22,098 nt of DNA. Origin: a virus. A model generated the notes under the pieces. The model was not told the DNA's origin, did not search any database, and saw only the letters and a list, made by a program, of their open reading frames with translations. Numbering within the stretch: the first letter of the stretch is position 1; each line of letters opens with the position of its first letter. Where the stretch lies: positions 1-22,098 of the IMG/VR virus record IMGVR_UViG_3300050821_002864; one strand, 5' to 3'. The translations under genes and the position numbers were made by a program. Below are positions 14,351 to 22,098 of this stretch, one piece after another.

Positions 14351-15252
14351 TACGTCCTCCGCATCTTTTCGTAAAATGAGCGGTTGTACGGATTGGCAAT
14401 GCGGTAGCCGCCGGCGCCGGCAATGACGCGCGGCACGTAGCGGTCATAGTTGCGGGCGTAGTATTCCGACTGGCCAAAGTTCTGGTGCTTCATGAGCAGC
14501 AGCTCGGCCGCCTTGAACTGCACCGCCTGCGCCCACGGGTCGGGGATTTGCGTGTCGATGTCGGTCAGGGCGACGAGCGGCGAGGCAATCTGCACCACAT
14601 CCCATTCGGAGAGGTAGAGCTGGTTGGGCGGCGGGTCTACGTAGACCAGCTGGTCCTGCTGGTGGATCGTCCATATGCCGGGCTGGGAGGTGAAGCCCTG
14701 GGACTGGAGCATGCGCGCCCAGGCCTGGAACACCGTAAAGCCTCTGAAGCTCAGGGTGTAGCGCATGGTATTCCAGAGATTGGATATCGAAATGACGTTA
14801 AGGATGTTGATCAGCATCACCGGCGACGCTGCCGCGCCCGAGCCTATTCCTCCGATGGTGATGCTGGGGGCTGACGTGTAGCCCTGGCCCCATTGCGTGA
14901 GCGATATTGACGTAAGAACTCCGCCAGTAAGATTCCCAATCCCAAGAGCAGTAGTCCCGCCTGGAGGAGCAGCAGCAAAAGTGACTGGTACTGTAGAACC
15001 GGCACCATAATTGCTACCTCCGGCCGTGACGTTGGCCCCCGCCACCGCACCGACGTAGTTGTAGGTTTCCTTGTTGAGCAGCAGTTGCACGCCGGTTTTC
15101 AGCGTGCGCACGCACTGCATGTCGAGCGACACGTCCTTGCGGGCGTCGTTGATGCGGCTGATTATCTCGGCTTGCGACCAGGCGCTATTGGTCGAGTCGT
15201 GGATGAGCGACTGGACCTGGTTAACGTAGTCCTGCAGCGCGAGCGTGGACAT
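14350..15252 (-). CDS. Head-tail adaptor (gp4-like connector), 300 aa, with inserted repeat module
   Basis: The N-terminal helices (LQDYVNQVQSLIHDSTNSAW, then SQAEIISRINDARKDVSLDM) are the usual opening of podovirus head-tail adaptors that dock under the portal. The C-terminal part (PDPWAQAVQFKAAELLLMKH, QSEYYARNYDRYVPRVIAGA) also fits that class. Between them, at about residues 68-145, lies a Gly-rich beta-repeat (VTAGGSNYGAGS, then WGQGYTSAPSITIGG) that breaks an otherwise helical protein. Without it the chain would be about 220 aa, nearer the size I would expect. ATG 15252 follows the upstream TGA after six bases. The product would join the packaged head to the tail hub encoded two genes on. 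Confidence 0.75.
   Translation of the reverse strand: MSTLALQDYVNQVQSLIHDSTNSAWSQAEIISRINDARKDVSLDMQCVRTLKTGVQLLLNKETYNYVGAVAGANVTAGGSNYGAGSTVPVTFAAAPPGGTTALGIGNLTGGVLTSISLTQWGQGYTSAPSITIGGIGSGAAASPVMLINILNVISISNLWNTMRYTLSFRGFTVFQAWARMLQSQGFTSQPGIWTIHQQDQLVYVDPPPNQLYLSEWDVVQIASPLVALTDIDTQIPDPWAQAVQFKAAELLLMKHQNFGQSEYYARNYDRYVPRVIAGAGGYRIANPYNRSFYEKMRRT
14820..15051 (-). repeat. Gly/Tyr beta-repeat module inserted in the adaptor
   Basis: Two units (VTAGGSNYGAG with PVTFAAAPPGG, and LTQWGQGYTSAPSITIGGIG) separate the two helical parts of the adaptor. A hand count over 14941-15000 gives 34/60 GC, lower than most flanking adaptor sequence. This fits a later insertion. Confidence 0.6.
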
Positions 15253-15816: not shown

Positions 15817-16004
15817 TAGTCGTCCTCGTCGTACTTCGGCTGAGGAGTCGACGCAGGCGACTGCGGGGCGCTGCGGATGGAGTCAGCCTCCTGCGCCTCC
15901 TCCGGGTGCTCGCGCACCCAGTCGGTCCACTTGGCCATGTCCTGGGCGTATTGCGATTGCTCGGCCGGGGTACAGGCAGGGCCGGGCTCTACGGGCTTGA
16001 TCAT
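15816..16004 (-). CDS. Small acidic protein, 62 aa
   Basis: Short, acidic and Pro/Gln-rich: the helical centre CTPAEQSQYAQDMAKWTDWV, then REHPEEAQEADSIRS, and an acidic end PKYDEDD. It is coupled on both sides (ATGA with the upstream virion gene, TAATG with the downstream gene). No family recognised. The fixed slot between head and connector genes suggests an assembly or connector helper. Confidence 0.75.
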   Translation of the reverse strand: MIKPVEPGPACTPAEQSQYAQDMAKWTDWVREHPEEAQEADSIRSAPQSPASTPQPKYDEDD

Positions 16005-17236
16005 GAGTTCACCGTTGATTGGATGACTGTGGTGTCGACAATGCTGCCGTATTGGGTGTTGGTCACCGTGGCGAGACTTGTGCTGCCTCCGTTCACCAGG
16101 ACGGCACCGCCCTGCAGGCCAAAGCCGGGATCTTCCACTGTGAACGACCCTGCGGCGGCAGTGATAAGACCACGCGCCGGGCGCGGCCAGAATTGACCAT
16201 TATTGAAGCTGCTGGCGATCAAACCGAGGGAAGTAATTGCTGGTGACCCAACAACCGCGGCCGTACCGCCAGTCGCCGTTGCGGTAGCCGCATTCATGCA
16301 GAACGACATGATGGCTGTAGCCGCCACGCCGCCCGCCAGGCCGCCGCCGGAGAACGAGATGGCCGGGACGCTATCGCCGCGGTAGCCGCCGCCGTTGAAC
16401 GTGATCACGAGGCCGGTCAGGGTGCCGGAGCCCGTGAGGACAGCAGGGGTGAGCAGCACACCGAGGGTGCCAAGCGCAATATTGCCCTGATACAGCGAGC
16501 CGGCCCAGACGTTGGCCGGGTTGATGAGGCCGGGCGGCGGGAAGACACCAGCGCCGCCGAGCGCGCCGGGAAGGTTGGCCGGGGAGCCGATGGCGGGCGG
16601 ATATTGCGGCGTTGCGAACGCAAACTGCGGGTTCGGCACCACGTAGAAGGCCGGCGTCGAGATGTAGCCGGCGCCGACGTTCTGCATCGTGATGGCGGTG
16701 ATGACGCCCGCGGCCGAGATGGTCGCCACCGCGGTCGCCTGGATACCGCCCTGCGGAGGCGGGTCGATCAGGATGAGCGGCGGCACCAGGAAGCCCGAGC
16801 CGCCCTGCGTGATGGTGGGGGCCGCCACCGAGCCGCCGACGATGGCGTAGGCTTGCGCGGTCGCGGTCACACCCCCAGCCGCCGGGGCGGCGATTGCAAC
16901 GAGAACGCCGGTCTGCGCCGGACCGATGCCGTTAGTGCCGCCCGAGCCCGCGTTGGTAATCTTGGCGCCGGCCACGACACCGGAATAGTTGATGAGTCGG
17001 AAGTTGCCGCCATCTGAGGTGAACGTGGCGTAGGAACCCGGCGGAGCCCAGGCCCGCCACATTAGGTTGTTAGGATCCCACCATTCCAGGATGGTCTGGC
17101 TGCCCGAGGCGATCAGGTAGTCGCCCGCGAGCGGGTAGTACTGCCCGCCGGATGGCAGCGTGATGATTTCGCCGCGCTGGGTATTCTGCGGTGAATCGAA
17201 GGTGAGCGGAATGCCAGGACCGCGAATCTGACCCAT
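16001..17236 (-). CDS. Repeat-rich virion/decoration protein, 411 aa
   Basis: The gene follows the capsid gene after nine bases with a GAGGT ribosome site. The first 85 residues (TFDSPQNTQRGEIITLPSGG, QYYPLAGDYLIASGSQTILE, WWDPNNLMWRAW) form a distinct domain resembling bases of capsid-associated phage proteins. Residues about 88-200 and 271-312 are Gly/Tyr beta-repeats (ITQGGSGFLVPPLILIDPPP, ITMQNVGAGYISTP, ITFNGGGYRGDSVPAISFSG). The end is Thr/Ser-rich and beta (TVEDPGFGLQGGAVLVNGGS). Placement right after the major capsid gene and the lack of catalytic motifs make a head-decorating or head-fibre protein the best guess. A tail-associated role is possible. Confidence 0.75.
   Translation of the reverse strand: MGQIRGPGIPLTFDSPQNTQRGEIITLPSGGQYYPLAGDYLIASGSQTILEWWDPNNLMWRAWAPPGSYATFTSDGGNFRLINYSGVVAGAKITNAGSGGTNGIGPAQTGVLVAIAAPAAGGVTATAQAYAIVGGSVAAPTITQGGSGFLVPPLILIDPPPQGGIQATAVATISAAGVITAITMQNVGAGYISTPAFYVVPNPQFAFATPQYPPAIGSPANLPGALGGAGVFPPPGLINPANVWAGSLYQGNIALGTLGVLLTPAVLTGSGTLTGLVITFNGGGYRGDSVPAISFSGGGLAGGVAATAIMSFCMNAATATATGGTAAVVGSPAITSLGLIASSFNNGQFWPRPARGLITAAAGSFTVEDPGFGLQGGAVLVNGGSTSLATVTNTQYGSIVDTTVIQSTVNS
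16301..16975 (-). repeat. Gly/Tyr beta-repeats in the capsid-adjacent virion protein
   Basis: At least four units of the form I-T-x-x-G-x-G-Y/F-x-x-x-P-x-I-x-I followed by GG-x-x-ATA lie at residues about 88-200 and 271-312. They are separated by a Pro-rich stretch. The same unit occurs in the adaptor and tail hub. Confidence 0.6.
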
Positions 17237-17245
17237 GGGGCGACC

Positions 17246-18262
17246 TCAGATGTTCAGGAATTGCAGGCCATCGATCTTGGCGTGGCACTTGGGTTTGACG
17301 TCGACCAGTTCGAGCAGCGACAGGATCGCGCTTATGTATCCGAACTGGTTGTTAGGGAGTGTCGACTCGAAGCCAGTAAAAGTGAAGGCCGCCCTCTCGT
17401 GCAGGAACAGAGACAAGTAATTCGTATTTATGATGTAAAGCGTCCCCTCCGGCGTATACGGATCCGCGTAGAAGGGGATTCCTGCTATGTCCAAGGCCTG
17501 AAAAGACGAGTGGCCAACGAAGTCCGCGCTCGCCTCCATCCGATTTGCCGGATTGATCGAATACCGCTCTTGCGGGGTAAAGTCCTGGGCGAGCAGTGTC
17601 CATGTGCCAAATCCCATGATGCCGATCTGGGGCATTTCGCCGGTCGTTTTGCTGACCTGCGCGATGTACTGCAGCATCAGGTTGCGGGTCGGCACCACGT
17701 TGCCGGCATTGTGGACGTAGGTGGATTTCCAGAAGGTGTTGACCGATCGCGAGATGCCGCCGTAGACGTTGGCGAAAGTTCCGTCGTCGATTGCGGCGGG
17801 TAATCCAATCAGTTGTTGGGTATTTGCTACGTTATTATAAAGGGTTGTGGCGAAAGTATCTATGCTCACATTAGTCGCGTCGTTCATGCGCGCGTCGATG
17901 AGCGGAACAATAGAGTAGTCGAGTTGCACGAGGCCTTCGAATCCAAGGAACGGGACGGGCGTGCAATAGGCCTTGAGGTTGAACTCGGCGTTCTGGATGC
18001 CGGGCATGACGCCGGGCTGGTTGAACGAGCCGGAGTAATCGACCCACTGGCCCGACACCATCGGTGCGCCCTGGACCGGGGCCGTGATGGGCGATAGACC
18101 GCCCGAGGCCACCTGTGCGGCCGACAACAGGCAGGCCATCAGCGGAGCCGACTTCCACAGCTGCACATACACCCGGGGCATGAATCCCCTGCGGACGACG
18201 GCGCTAAGCTCTGTCGCTATCGCCGAGGCGGCCGGGATGATGCCACTACCAAGTTGGGGCAT
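17246..18262 (-). CDS. Major capsid protein, 338 aa
   Basis: Best read as the coat subunit. The length is right for an HK97-fold phage coat, it lies straight after a scaffold-like gene and before a decoration-like gene, and its ribosome site (GAGGA, 8 bases before ATG) is strong. It starts MPQLGSGIIPAASAIATELS and has mixed helix and strand (TRNLMLQYIAQVSKTTGEMP, IGIMGFGTWTLLAQDF, NRMEASADFVGHSSFQALDI, AGIPFYADPYTPEGTLYIIN). The segment IPFYADPYTPEGTLYIIN followed by LHERAAFTFTGF is of the type often found in the P-domain/beta-hinge part of coats. No protease-cleaved delta domain is visible within this ORF. Family sub-assignment is not possible by eye. Confidence 0.85.
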   Translation of the reverse strand: MPQLGSGIIPAASAIATELSAVVRRGFMPRVYVQLWKSAPLMACLLSAAQVASGGLSPITAPVQGAPMVSGQWVDYSGSFNQPGVMPGIQNAEFNLKAYCTPVPFLGFEGLVQLDYSIVPLIDARMNDATNVSIDTFATTLYNNVANTQQLIGLPAAIDDGTFANVYGGISRSVNTFWKSTYVHNAGNVVPTRNLMLQYIAQVSKTTGEMPQIGIMGFGTWTLLAQDFTPQERYSINPANRMEASADFVGHSSFQALDIAGIPFYADPYTPEGTLYIINTNYLSLFLHERAAFTFTGFESTLPNNQFGYISAILSLLELVDVKPKCHAKIDGLQFLNI

Positions 18263-18276
18263 AGGTCACTTCCTCA

Positions 18277-18846
18277 TCAGCGCCGAAAACCCGGCGACAG
18301 GCTCTTGTTCTTGAATTCCGTGATGACGTTGTAGGCGGCGTTGAGCGAGTGCGTGCGCGGATCGGCGGCGAAGGACTTGAAGTCCATTTGCTTGCCGTCC
18401 TTGCCGGCGACGGTCGGGAATTCCCACGTCGCACCCGGCCGCTCGCTCGGCGATGGCGGCTGTACGGACGGGTCCGTTTCGCCGCTCCTGTGGGCATAGA
18501 CGATGGCGGCAGACTCAAGGTCGCTGGTTCCGAGTCGGGCGGCCTCCGCCTCGATGGCCTCCATGCGCTTTTCGTCGTAGCGCTCGGCGAGCTTGGCGCG
18601 CTGCTCGTCCGCCTTATCCTTGGCGGCCTTGGCCCCCTTGAGGTCGAGCTTCTCCTCAATTTCGGTGCGGAAGGCTTCGAGCTTGTCGACCTGGTCGACG
18701 TCGGCGAAGGAGCGTGCGGCGCGCTGCGGGTCGATCTTCTTGACCAGCTTGGCGAGGTCTTTGCGGGTTTCGGGATTGTGGCCGAGGTTATACGCGAGCG
18801 TCGCGAGATCGGCCTGCTGCTGGGGGGTGAGACGCGGGGCGGCCAT
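18277..18846 (-). CDS. Capsid scaffolding protein candidate, 189 aa
   Basis: A charged, Ala/Lys/Glu/Asp-rich helical protein with a long coiled-coil centre (AFRTEIEEKLDLKGAKAAKD, KADEQRAKLAERYDEKRMEA). The tail part is looser (PSVQPPSPSERPGATWEFP) and the end basic (KNKSLSPGFRR). Gene order (just before the coat), size and composition are typical of internal scaffolds, which are rarely alike in sequence. ATG 18846 overlaps the stop of the 45-codon gene before it (TGATG). No maturation protease is seen in the window, so scaffold exit without cleavage, as in P22, is plausible. Confidence 0.75.
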   Translation of the reverse strand: MAAPRLTPQQQADLATLAYNLGHNPETRKDLAKLVKKIDPQRAARSFADVDQVDKLEAFRTEIEEKLDLKGAKAAKDKADEQRAKLAERYDEKRMEAIEAEAARLGTSDLESAAIVYAHRSGETDPSVQPPSPSERPGATWEFPTVAGKDGKQMDFKSFAADPRTHSLNAAYNVITEFKNKSLSPGFRR

Positions 18847-18983
18847 CAGTGCGGGCTCCTTCGCAGGCGCTCGATTTCATCGATCGCGTCCTGCAAGTTT
18901 TTCCGCTCCCAATCGAGCGGATAGCCGAAACTGGAAAGCATGCTCTTGAGGCGATCGACGATATCGGCAAGCTTGGGTTCCAT
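18846..18983 (-). CDS. Very small helical protein, 45 aa
   Basis: An ORF of 45 codons fits exactly between two genes, with one-base TGATG overlaps at both ends. It reads MEPKLADIVDRLKSMLSSFG, then YPLDWERKNLQDAIDEIERL, and ends RRSPH. Both halves look like amphipathic helices. It is too short for most gene callers but the double coupling is strong evidence. No family recognised. It may cooperate with the adjacent scaffold in head assembly. Confidence 0.7.
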   Translation of the reverse strand: MEPKLADIVDRLKSMLSSFGYPLDWERKNLQDAIDEIERLRRSPH

Positions 18984-19231
18984 CAGAGCGGACTCTTTCC
19001 TGTGATGGATTTCTCCATGCCGAGCATTTTTTCATAAGTCTTGTTGCGGCCGCCGGGGCGCGTCCCATCCAGGTTGGCTGGGCGCTTGGGCGGGGAGGAG
19101 GGAAGGTCCGGAGTTCTGCCGCGCATGGTGTATGAGTTCCCCATCGGATTGCGGAACTCGAAATCCTCCGTGCGAGCTTTGAACAACTGCTCCTTCGTCA
19201 AGCCTTTCGGCCGCATGTAGTCGCCGCCCAT
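18983..19231 (-). CDS. Small protein, 82 aa, paralogue of the 66-aa protein two genes upstream
   Basis: The real start is ATG 19231 (MGGDYMRPKGLTKEQLFKAR), where it overlaps the Tad2-like gene's TGA (TGATG). A longer frame from 19396 is only that gene in another frame. The pattern DY-M-R-PKG-L-x4-L-x-K-x-R-x-ED-x-x-FRNP is shared with the protein at 19455-19655 (DYLKPKG, then L-x-K-x-x-x-ED-x-x-FRNP). The remainder is Pro/Arg/Lys-rich and probably disordered. Function unknown; the pair flanks the Tad2-like gene. Confidence 0.75.
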   Translation of the reverse strand: MGGDYMRPKGLTKEQLFKARTEDFEFRNPMGNSYTMRGRTPDLPSSPPKRPANLDGTRPGGRNKTYEKMLGMEKSITGKSPL

Positions 19232-19455
19232 CAAGCAAGCTCCCAATCGATTGCGAGAAGATCGGTCTGCGAGCACAGCCAAGGAATCAGGCTGCCATCG
19301 ACGGTGCTCATGAAGACAAACGGCCGGCAAAAGGTGCCTGCCGCATCGACTGGCTGCCCGGGCGTCAGGGCAATCCACATGCCTTTGCCGTTCCATCCGG
19401 CGCGGCGCACATGGCTGCCGTCGCGCATCCGATCAACGGCGTTGCCGATGTCCAT
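19231..19455 (-). CDS. tad2: DUF2829 / Tad2-like anti-Thoeris protein, 74 aa
   Basis: The sequence keeps the DUF2829 hallmarks: an opening helix (MDIGNAVDRMRDGSHVRRAG), then GWNGKGMWIAL, a middle PFVFMSTVDGSLIPWLCSQT and the ending DLLAIDWELA. Known family: DUF2829 proteins such as SPO1 Tad2 bind the cyclic ADP-ribose signal made by Thoeris TIR proteins and so block that defence; some members also bind other cyclic nucleotides. The length of 74 aa is within the short range of the family. It overlaps both flanking genes by one base (TGATG). Odd points: it lies in the head operon rather than an early region, between two paralogues. Family assignment is confident; activity in this phage is inference. 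Confidence 0.85.
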   Translation of the reverse strand: MDIGNAVDRMRDGSHVRRAGWNGKGMWIALTPGQPVDAAGTFCRPFVFMSTVDGSLIPWLCSQTDLLAIDWELA

Positions 19456-19655
19456 CAGATCGGCCTGCCGCTGACAGCCTTCGGGCCGCCGCGCTCAAGG
19501 GTCATCTTGTTGCGGTCGAACTTGCCCTTGTCGACCGATGTAAAACCGCCGAAAGCCGACATGGTCGGCGGGTTGCGAAACTGGCCGTCCTCCATGCTGC
19601 GCTTTTGCAGGTTGGAGGTATTGACGCCCTTCGGCTTGAGGTAATCCTGCGCCAT
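19455..19655 (-). CDS. Small protein, 66 aa, paralogue of the 82-aa protein downstream
   Basis: It reads MAQDYLKPKGVNTSNLQKRS, then MEDGQFRNPPTMSAFGG, with a Lys/Arg/Gly-rich end. It shares the DY-x-x-PKG...ED-x-x-FRNP pattern with 18983-19231. The start is one base after the upstream TGA, with GGAGA about 7 bases before the ATG. No membrane segment or enzymatic motif. It flanks the Tad2-like gene, so the three may have travelled together. Function unknown. Confidence 0.75.
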   Translation of the reverse strand: MAQDYLKPKGVNTSNLQKRSMEDGQFRNPPTMSAFGGFTSVDKGKFDRNKMTLERGGPKAVSGRPI

Positions 19656-19656
19656 G

Positions 19657-20109
19657 TCACATCTCCGGTGGCATTCCGCCTCCGCCGCCGCCCATTGGGC
19701 CGCCTGGAGGCATTGTGGGAGGGGGGCCGCCGCCCATGCCCGGTGGAGGGCTGCCGGCTAGCGGCGGCTTGGGCGCCTGTGCGATCTGGCGCCGCGCGGC
19801 CGGAACGAGATCCTGGTCGGTTGGCTTGCCGAATACGGGGTTGAGCGCCTTGATTGCGCTCATGAGCCCGTTGAATTCCCGGCTGCCGGGCTCGAAATTC
19901 ATCGCCTCGGCGAGCAATGTCTGGGTGCAGGCCTTGATCTTGGCTACCGCCTTGGCCTTGCCTCCCGCATTAGCGCCGGGCGACACCATCGGGCTTGCCC
20001 CGGGGCCGCCAGCGCCTCCGATTGGTGACTTTGGCAGCGCTGCAGGGGCTGCTCCGGCGGGGCCTGCGCCTGGTCCGCGCGGCATGAATGGCATGGGCAT
20101 CTGAGCCAT
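19657..20109 (-). CDS. Gly/Pro/Met-rich protein with central helical domain, 150 aa
   Basis: Low-complexity ends (MPFMPRGPGAGPAGAAPAAL at the front, then Pro/Gly/Met-rich from about residue 115) surround a central ordered part at about 48-105 (GKAKAVAKIKACTQTLLAEA, SREFNGLMSAIKALNPVFGK). The most upstream ATG has AAGG almost touching it; the second ATG (three codons later) is better spaced, so the true start may be 9 bases in. It is the first gene after the spacer behind the portal. Such Gly/Pro-rich proteins near portals are common but uncharacterised. Function unknown. Confidence 0.75.
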   Translation of the reverse strand: MAQMPMPFMPRGPGAGPAGAAPAALPKSPIGGAGGPGASPMVSPGANAGGKAKAVAKIKACTQTLLAEAMNFEPGSREFNGLMSAIKALNPVFGKPTDQDLVPAARRQIAQAPKPPLAGSPPPGMGGGPPPTMPPGGPMGGGGGGMPPEM

Positions 20110-20156: not shown

Positions 20157-20174
20157 TTGTTTCACATGAAACAA
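20157..20174. promoter_or_regulatory. parS-like near-palindrome
   Basis: TTGTTTCACATGAAACAA contains a 16-mer with one mismatch to the bacterial ParB site TGTTTCACGTGAAACA. It lies in the only real spacer of the window. As RNA it could also form a small hairpin. Whether any ParB binds is not known. Confidence 0.45.
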
Positions 20175-20176
20175 CT

Positions 20177-20199
20177 GACCCCGGCTTTTGGCCAGGGTC
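20177..20199 (-). terminator. Hairpin, possible attenuator or weak terminator
   Basis: In minus-strand RNA the stem GACCCUGGC / GCCGGGGUC pairs over 9 positions (one U-G) around a CAAAA loop. No clear U-run follows; instead the parS-like palindrome comes directly after. It may set the ratio of portal to downstream products rather than end transcription. Confidence 0.35.
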
Positions 20200-20349: not shown

Positions 20350-20382
20350 GGAATAAAGTCACATGGATAGGAATAAAAGTCA
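20350..20382 (-). repeat. Tandem TGACTTTATTCC motifs after the portal gene
   Basis: Minus-strand copies TTGACTTTTATTCCTATCC and GTGACTTTATTCCCACC follow one another, the first overlapping the portal stop codon. With the copy at 20134-20146 they make three related motifs around one spacer. They could be control sites, phage promoters or packaging-related signals. Confidence 0.35.
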
Positions 20383-22098
20383 ACGTCGCCGACGGCCGCC
20401 GCCGCCGCCAGCGATGGCCTGGAGGCGCTGTTCGGGCGGCAGCGATTGCAGCATCTGGCGCTGCTTGCGCGCCTGCGCCCGCTGACCGTGAATGATGGCG
20501 TCCTGGTTGGGCGGGTGGAGCATGCGAACGAACATCTCGTTGTCAATCGCGTTGGATTTCTTGAGCAGCGCCGCCATCTCGCGGGCGTCGTCAACGAACA
20601 GCGGCGAGTGGGCATGGCCGCTGATCTTGATCTTGACGTCGGTGGCGAGCTGGGCCGCAACGAAGGGCTCGGAGGTCTCTTTCCCATCCTTGCCCTCATA
20701 GGGCTCCGGGATGATGGCGTCATCGTCGTTGCGCATCTTGAGCTTGAGGCCGAGGTCACCGAGCCGCACCAGGGCGGGCTCAAGCGCCAGCGCGGCGCGC
20801 TTGATGCGGCCGGATCCGGTTCGCTGCAGTGCCTGGGCGTGGTTCTTGGACCGCACCCCTTGGGCGCCCTGGCCGGAAATCACCTCCGTCAGCCCCGATG
20901 CTTCCAGGAAAAAAACGCCTATCTCCTTGAGTTCCGCGAACATGTCTTCGGGCATGTCGGGCTTCAATTCCTCGATCTTAGCGCCAGGCGTCTGCTCCAG
21001 GATGGAGGTGTCGGCCGCCCCGAACTGCTCGAATTTCTCGTCCGTGAGGCCGCTCATGCCACTTCCCCACTTGGCTGGGTAGGCCTGTTTCTCCAGCAAA
21101 TCATCAATCTGTTCGAATCTCTCGTTCATCCAGTCCTGCAGGCTCGTCAGGCTATCGATGTGTGCCTTGCCCCAGAAGTAGTTGTACTTGCGGTAGGGCT
21201 GGATCTTGGTGAAGGGATTTTCCCCGGGCAGGAACAGGTTGGACTGCGAGATGGCGAATTCGTCGTCACCGGGCGCCACTGTGGCGAGCTCGCCGTCCTT
21301 GGCAGCGCGCCTGCGCCGCGGGGTTTTTCCAGCCTTGTCCTCCAGCATCCGCCGTGCGCCCGGCGATGACATCATGGCGCGGACGGTCTTGCGGCTGTCG
21401 CCGATCAGGATGTCGGGCTCGACCAGGTGGAAAATCCGGTAATCGGCGCACTCCGAGTCCCATGCCCACAGTTCGTTGAACATCACCATGGGGTGCTGGG
21501 TCTGCGGCTGGTAGGTATCGAGCGGCGTGTATTCGGGGTTGATCTGGCCGAGGATGTTGCCCTGAAGATTAAGCCCGCCGGTGCCCGCAATGATCATCCT
21601 CGTCAACATCTCAGGGAACGGCGACTCGTAGGGCTGGTTGACGATCGACATGCGGGCGATGTCGGTCGATCGGCCGGCGCGGTTCAGGCGTTCCACCGCA
21701 TCGTGATACTCAAGCGGGTAGGTGTGAACGAACGCCTCCTGCTCATCGAGTCCGGTCAGGTCTTCCCGAAACACCCCGAACTGGTGCGGCGGGATGAGCA
21801 TTATCGTGCCCTCGCCGCGGATGTCGTTCCAGCCCTGCTTGCACAGCATGGTGTTGTAGACGCAGGACCAGGGGATAGCTTCGGAGAAGGCATCGTTGGC
21901 CCCCATGTCCTGGAAGTCGTCGTTGAACTCGTCCTGCAGGGCGGTGGCCTGTTTGACGACTTCGTCTGAGGCGTTGCGCTGCGCCGCGATATTGTAGAAA
22001 GCATGGTCGGGCGCATACAAGAACGACGCCACCAAATCAATGTGGCTTTCGATGCGGTTGTAGCGCACCATGTCGCCCGGCCCTGCGCTGCCAAACAG
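20380..22098 (-). CDS. Portal protein, at least 572 aa, open at right edge
   Basis: The frame runs in from the window edge (LFGSAGPGD before the first ATG at 22071), so the start lies outside. The sequence has portal features: an N-terminal segment (MVRYNRIESHIDLVASFLYA), a charged body with wing-type strands, and the stem/clip stretch FLEASGLTEVISGQGAQGVR, then SKNHAQALQRTGSGRIKRAA and LALEPALVRLGDL. The latter is characteristic of dodecameric portals. The end is unusual: LQAIAGGGGGRRRR, a Gly hinge and four Arg, just upstream of the separate Arg-rich micropeptide. It forms the ring through which the terminase packages DNA. The terminase would be expected to the right, outside the window. 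Confidence 0.85.
   Translation of the reverse strand: MFGSAGPGDMVRYNRIESHIDLVASFLYAPDHAFYNIAAQRNASDEVVKQATALQDEFNDDFQDMGANDAFSEAIPWSCVYNTMLCKQGWNDIRGEGTIMLIPPHQFGVFREDLTGLDEQEAFVHTYPLEYHDAVERLNRAGRSTDIARMSIVNQPYESPFPEMLTRMIIAGTGGLNLQGNILGQINPEYTPLDTYQPQTQHPMVMFNELWAWDSECADYRIFHLVEPDILIGDSRKTVRAMMSSPGARRMLEDKAGKTPRRRRAAKDGELATVAPGDDEFAISQSNLFLPGENPFTKIQPYRKYNYFWGKAHIDSLTSLQDWMNERFEQIDDLLEKQAYPAKWGSGMSGLTDEKFEQFGAADTSILEQTPGAKIEELKPDMPEDMFAELKEIGVFFLEASGLTEVISGQGAQGVRSKNHAQALQRTGSGRIKRAALALEPALVRLGDLGLKLKMRNDDDAIIPEPYEGKDGKETSEPFVAAQLATDVKIKISGHAHSPLFVDDAREMAALLKKSNAIDNEMFVRMLHPPNQDAIIHGQRAQARKQRQMLQSLPPEQRLQAIAGGGGGRRRR

Follow-up and report, generated by a model that had tools for sequence, protein, structure and literature searches.

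What is a gene of an anti-defence family doing in the middle of a phage head operon? The window analysed here is the whole 22,098-base virus record IMGVR_UViG_3300050821_002864 (positions 1-22,098), from a soil phage. An earlier note on this DNA placed a Tad2-like gene, of the family linked to the sequestration of Thoeris immune signals, among its head genes, considered that location odd for an anti-defence gene, and left room for either protection late in infection or a structural role. The window gene adds one member to a family that is already known, and its placement is what makes it informative.

A Tad2 family gene in a chain of overlapping head genes

The Tad2-like gene (PF11195/DUF2829; 19231..19455, minus strand) encodes a protein of 74 amino acids, shorter than homologues that carry an insertion. 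The product matches PF11195 (Tad2-like, formerly DUF2829) with 74.8 bits against a curated cut-off of 25, about three times that threshold (E 7.9e-21), and the alignment lays residues 1-73 on positions 1-72 of the 73-position profile. A phmmer search of the PDB returns seven Tad2-family sequences at E ≤1.7e-8, including those of the Myroides, SPO1, Hgm and Spt Tad2 proteins, and the motifs on which the family had first been recognised (GWNGKGMW, IPWLCSQTDLLA and DWELA) are all present in the 74-residue protein. The profile score and the fold match to SPO1 Tad2 described below bear out the family assignment, and membership is solid: the product is a genuine, conserved and mobile member of the Tad2 family in a head operon. 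Two other kinds of match were considered and judged to be chance, namely one to the RcGTA stopper (6tba, E 0.55), which is not recovered with a profile, and matches of the Tad2 profile to ubiquitin, for most of which no stretch passes alone.

On the minus strand the genes run in the order portal, p150, paraA, Tad2, paraB, p45, scaffold and major capsid protein (MCP). The portal (563 aa; 20380..22071, minus strand) has a weak match to phrog_104 (8.5e-4) and is homologous to the annotated portals of MW202825 and MW202753. The Gly/Pro-rich, 150-residue p150 (19657..20109, minus strand) is the first gene of the head run after the portal. Downstream, the scaffold-like protein (189 aa; 18277..18846, minus strand) has a weak match to phrog_648 (2e-3) and a conserved place before the MCP (338 aa; 17246..18262, minus strand), which matches phrog_9953 at 3.7e-28. 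These profile matches, weak for portal and scaffold, agree with the location amid head genes that had been proposed. Further along, two proteins encoded at 14353-15252 and 16004-17236 share profile matches to head-closure Hc2, tail-fibre and baseplate proteins over a repeat-like stretch.

Two short genes flank the Tad2 gene directly. paraA (66 aa; 19455..19655, minus strand), which is found in nearly all related head operons, ends in a TGATG overlap with the Tad2 start, and paraB (82 aa; 18983..19231, minus strand) begins in a TGATG overlap with the Tad2 stop. Both overlaps, reported before, are confirmed, and they belong to a longer chain than had been described: p45 (45 aa; 18846..18983, minus strand), an ORF matched only in the near-identical record L004, overlaps paraB on one side and the scaffold gene on the other in the same way, giving four consecutive TGATG junctions. 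The proposal that the flanking genes are paralogues is supported by a single BLASTP comparison (14/29 identical, E 3e-8) and by profile-profile comparison (probability 74.7, E 2.6e-5). Neither gene has a Pfam match, paraA has one insignificant PHROG match, and in cultured phages there is no convincing match to either except a distant paraA copy in two Manatee Spring phages.

A terminator-like hairpin lies in the gap between portal and p150 (20177..20199, minus strand); the hairpin scan found seven terminator-like sites against 3.3 (sd 1.9) expected, so this evidence is weak. A scan for sigma-70-like promoters, a weak kind of search, returns none upstream of Tad2 within the head run. The portal/p150 gap also contains a near-parS site, TGTTTCACATGAAACA (20158-20173), for which none of 100 shuffles gave a match. 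We take this site to be one mismatch from the bacterial parS consensus. Among records L004-L069, it occurs at this place only in the near-identical L004.

Accessory cargo in the head operon

A scan with the MCP gathers 66 related loci, most of which keep the order portal, p150, paraA, scaffold, MCP. The slot between paraA and scaffold is readable in 64: it spans at most 120 nt in 41, is longer but filled with other ORFs and no Tad2 in 20, and holds Tad2 in three. One of the three, L004, is 99.98% identical to the window over 12,682 bases and is the same virus or a near copy, so the independent occupied slots number two (L029 and L030). A scan with the Tad2 protein adds L072, in which paraA, Tad2, a paraB-like gene, scaffold and MCP follow one another. 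The three-gene order of the window, which the earlier note proposed to seek in other phages, is thus present in one other lineage, while the two further relatives have only paraA-Tad2-scaffold. The paraA stop and Tad2 start form TGATG in all four carriers (L004, L029, L030 and L072), against 17 of the 63 other loci read for the junction between paraA and whatever follows it.

Whole-record PF11195 searches covered the 66 loci, L072, L002, L003 and eight MAG-derived loci. Matches occur only in L004, L029, L030, L072 and L113, and fifteen records of 40 kb or more have none; most of the searched records are fragments, so that absence from them is not proof. In L113 the Tad2 gene lies before the portal and starts at the end of a putative large-terminase ORF, taken as such by its place and its likeness to counterparts. 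Relatives with an 89-90% identical MCP have no Tad2 in the slot and no PF11195 match elsewhere in their records. On a tree of 66 MCP rows, with the window standing for L004 and MCPs below 240 aa left out, Tad2 is present in four of the 64 scored rows. Its distribution takes four changes, at least three of them forced by strongly supported branches, and shuffled labels give a mean of 3.9. This agreement shows that the carriers are scattered, which is the pattern of cargo; the L072 row sits on a long branch and its placement is unsure. Occupying three of 64 slots, with L072 and L113 in addition, the Tad2 gene is accessory cargo and not a conserved part of the head.

A single old acquisition was considered because global-alignment identities of Tad2 among the window, L029, L030 and L072 (55-71%) resemble those of p150 and paraA. 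This scenario is disfavoured by three findings: the nearest MCPs to that of L030 (96%) come without Tad2, the L029 Tad2 resembles one from an unrelated phage more than it does the L030 protein, and the L113 gene lies before the portal instead of in the slot. Repeated gain and loss fits better, with gain and loss indistinguishable on the tree. In these loci the portal can also lie on the strand opposite the head genes, as it does in eight of the 65 loci where both are seen (L024, L025, L026, L028, L029, L030, L032 and L066); in L030 a terminase-like ORF and the head genes run in one direction and the portal in the other.

Exchange with more distant phages is seen in the Tad2 genes themselves. 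The L029 and L071 proteins are 83% identical, and those of L071 and L076 are 84% identical. In L071 the gene directly follows a head-tail connector (portal) that does not match the window portal, and in L076, a genome of 39% GC, it directly precedes a scaffold and an MCP of other families (phrog_8865, phrog_283). Phages with unrelated heads therefore carry closely related Tad2 genes. A head or packaging gene lies within ~3.3 kb of the Tad2 gene in seven of nine short-form loci (L071, L072, L074, L076, L077, L078 and L080), the L080 count resting solely on matches to repeat-like virion profiles. The nine loci counted are L071-L074, L076-L078, L080 and L081; L075 and L079 are left out as apparent copies of L074 and L078 with the same Tad2 sequence, and L082-L096 lie outside the count. 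As there is no control for random phage genes, we claim no enrichment of short-form Tad2 near head or packaging genes. A protein beside the L080 Tad2 gene shows the same Hc2, tail-fibre and baseplate repeat-like matches as the two window proteins noted above.

These data bear on the possibility that the product acts in the virion or in its assembly, for example as a neck protein or a capsid decoration, and shares the Tad2 fold by chance. Its location among head genes and the four TGATG junctions would suit such a part, as would the one non-Tad2 structure that stands out against the predicted model, 8qkh_S, with Z 5.3 over 64 residues (17% identity) when unrelated structures reach at most 3.8; the notes of the VIA tool caution that Z below 8 may reflect merely a common arrangement. 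This chain, one domain of which faintly resembles Tad2 in fold, is Gp168 (152 aa) of Staphylococcus phage 812 (NC_029080; L126:32431-32886). In the phage 812 neck, PMC12886913 describes a stopper decoration protein, numbered gp164, in which two helices flank a sheet; from its size and two-domain build we take it to be 8qkh_S, although the numbering differs. Even up to E 10, however, the phage 812 protein gives no PF11195 match, and it has no sequence or profile match to the window protein; it is best regarded as a lead on the origin of the fold and does not place the window protein in virions. The slot is without Tad2 in 61 of 64 related operons, some of them with the 89-90% identical MCPs, no copy was found elsewhere in the records of those operons, and its sisters occur with unrelated heads. 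A virion part is accordingly unlikely, and accessory cargo remains our reading. The result that was to have spoken for the structural role, a lost ligand pocket with conservation only as a virion part, is not what we find, since the pocket is kept (see below) and most sister head operons have no such gene.

Cultured phages place related genes in varied surroundings. In a sample of 16 from the 288 phage records matching the window protein, hand-picked for variety, the Tad2-like gene lies inside a run of virion genes in four, near terminase or lysis genes in five (Curiosium, VLCpiS10a, PmP19, Pm86 and Lb) and elsewhere in seven (XC38, N4, Tbat1_6, MW202665, MW202475, Abouo and SPO1L3). Inside virion runs, it directly follows the portal in Ruegeria 45A6 and the capsid gene in Klebsiella KPPK108.1, lies two genes before the MCP in Vibrio 1.127.O and follows an internal virion lysozyme protein in Pectobacterium Momine. 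The Ruegeria, Klebsiella and Vibrio phages share the Tad2 family and the late place with the window, while being different phages with Tad2 regions only ~40-43% identical to that of the window. Elsewhere, the Tad2-like gp49 of N4 lies beside the virion RNA polymerase gene, and in SPO1L3, a close relative of SPO1, Tad2 is found among small uncharacterised genes and not among head genes as in the window. Placement in the head region is thus recurrent without being a rule, and with nine of 16 genes in a virion run or near terminase or lysis genes, the location is less odd than had been thought. Several of the cultured phages carry the gene in replication or unassigned regions, which means that capsid timing is not needed for the Tad2 family as a whole.

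A soil podovirus, Sinorhizobium phage AP-20-A, carries a Tad2-like protein, P015, which is like that of the window in kind but differs in length (97 versus 74 aa) and is closest to the Myroides Tad2 (PMC13299392). The claim of that paper to a first Tad2-like domain in a rhizobiophage is qualified by Rhizobium phages MN988506 and MN988548 (hits H96 and H119), in which annotated DUF2829 (Tad2-family) genes are already present.

Predicted fold and ligand pocket

An AlphaFold model of the window protein, built as a monomer from 24 homologues (pLDDT 84.3, pTM 0.69), is predicted to adopt the Tad2 fold. All 24 Foldseek matches at E ≤0.001 are Tad2 or HgmTad2/AcrIIA7 structures, the best being SPO1 Tad2 with 1''-3' gcADPR (E 9.5e-7, TM 0.85), which is also the best VIA match (Z 11.8, 73 aligned, rmsd 2.3). 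In a viral structure library, the 21 matches at E ≤0.001 are named Tad2-like or DUF2829 or are nameless. The active form may be a homotetramer.

SPO1 Tad2 (Gp34.65; PDB 8sme, 8smf and 8smg) belongs to the same Pfam family and shares the GWNGK and SQTDxLAxDW motifs; it has 89-90 residues against 74 in the window and is ~34-36% identical in structural alignment. The best PDB sequence match (E 4e-11) is ModTad2 from a Myroides odoratus prophage (8v3e, apo; 9eib, with hisADPR), whose fold matches the model with Z 11.1-11.6 and which has SVSD where the window and SPO1 proteins have SQTD. HgmTad2/AcrIIA7 (8kbi-8kbm) and SptTad2 (8wjd) are of the same family (Z 10.4-11.2) and share the GWNGKGM motif with the window, and the SQTD block aligns for HgmTad2, but both carry a long insertion that the window Tad2 does not have.

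The gcADPR pocket of Tad2 is formed by loop 1-2, loop 3-4, strand 4, the following loop and helix 3 (PMC12043709). We mapped these elements of the review onto the window model, guided by the alignment. The first corresponds to the loop between strands 1 and 2 (AGWNGKGM; codons 19-26; 19378..19401, minus strand), and the second to loop 3-4, strand 4, the next loop and a short helix (TVDGSLIPWLCSQTDLL; codons 51-67; 19255..19305, minus strand). Ten of the 16 columns that are invariant in the 24 homologues fall inside these elements, which cover 25 of 74 residues (hypergeometric p 0.008); as the homologues were picked by similarity to the window and the mapping is our own, this is supportive and not decisive. 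The comparison with the SPO1 pocket that the earlier note proposed thus finds the motifs intact at the level of pocket elements; a list of the individual SPO1 Tad2 contact residues was not found in the open literature.

The relation to HgmTad2 and SptTad2, which bind cGG (PDB entry titles; PMC12043709), raises the possibility of a cyclic-dinucleotide binder that blocks CBASS or TIR-STING in the manner of HgmTad2. That binding, however, is tied to the long insertion between strands 2 and 5 (PMC12043709), and the alignment shows a gap for this stretch in the window protein, which has 74 residues against 101-104. SPO1 Tad2, which is also shorter, did not bind 3'3'-cGAMP (PMC11722364), and we consider a dinucleotide ligand very unlikely. 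An anti-CRISPR action of the AcrIIA7 kind on Cas9 is suggested by PDB entries of the same family named AcrIIA7 and Inhibitor of Type II CRISPR-Cas, and by two E. coli phage records that label the homologue an anti-CRISPR protein; yet the entries so named include complexes with 1',2'-cADPR and cGG, nothing points to Cas9 and the link is one of sequence relation, which makes this role highly improbable.

The pattern of substitution shows purifying selection on Tad2: of 15 pairs, the nine whose dS is not saturated give dN/dS of 0.10-0.31, the other six being unrated. For the window gene the values are 0.23-0.31 against L029, L030, L072 and L071, and dS is saturated against L076. A recent hitchhiker without present function, which the patchy distribution might suggest, is extremely unlikely given these values, the intact motifs and a gene GC of 0.622 that matches the 0.621 of the genome.

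A possible role timed with the capsid

The account that we think reasonably probable is that of a short Tad2 that holds an ADPR-type Thoeris signal and is carried as mobile cargo in the head operon, where it is made with the capsid. The earlier interpretation stands in its family assignment and position, and loses part of its force where it relied on the oddness of the place. According to this account, the protein would capture and retain an immune signal of the ADP-ribose type produced by a host TIR enzyme, the candidates being gcADPR in type I Thoeris and His-ADPR in type II. With its signal sequestered, the Thoeris effector would stay off. Both the ligand and the anti-Thoeris effect are proposed from kinship with the characterised proteins. 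As accessory cargo, the gene would have entered the head operon at a stop-start junction, where the TGATG overlaps are expected to couple it translationally to the genes on either side. Through this coupling, Tad2 would be made together with scaffold and MCP, and co-translation with the capsid protein is probable. Judged by gene order, expression would be late.

Such timing may be of benefit. For staphylococcal Thoeris, the phage major head protein is both necessary and sufficient for activation, and a streptococcal Thoeris is reported to sense it as well (PMC12578639). Since fresh MCP sets off some Thoeris systems, the sponge would be present in the cell when the alarm is raised. Capsid sensing makes one ask how phages can meet an alarm that sounds only while heads are being made, and transcribing a sponge gene together with the capsid gene would be one simple way. 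The main text of PMC12578639 does not use the term Tad2, and no statement linking a Tad2 sponge to the capsid trigger was found in the open literature, subscription papers not being covered. The published cases of capsid sensing are staphylococcal and streptococcal and not from soil hosts, which counts against the reading; a genome scan for the host of the window phage gave eight MAG contigs from phyla too scattered to name one.

A broader proposal, which we offer tentatively and think somewhat unlikely, is that in several unrelated phage groups a Thoeris sponge shares a translation unit with the capsid protein that sets Thoeris off. Antidote would then be made in proportion to trigger, and the whole would form a timed, dose-matched counter-defence cassette, swapped in and out where one gene of the head operon stops and the next starts. 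In these soil phages, further accessory and possibly counter-defence genes can be sought in the slot between paraA and scaffold, which often contains unrelated ORFs or a short relative of paraB that has an NP motif and frequently a GME-like one, as in L005, L018, L020, L022, L035, L042, L059, L066, L069 and L072.
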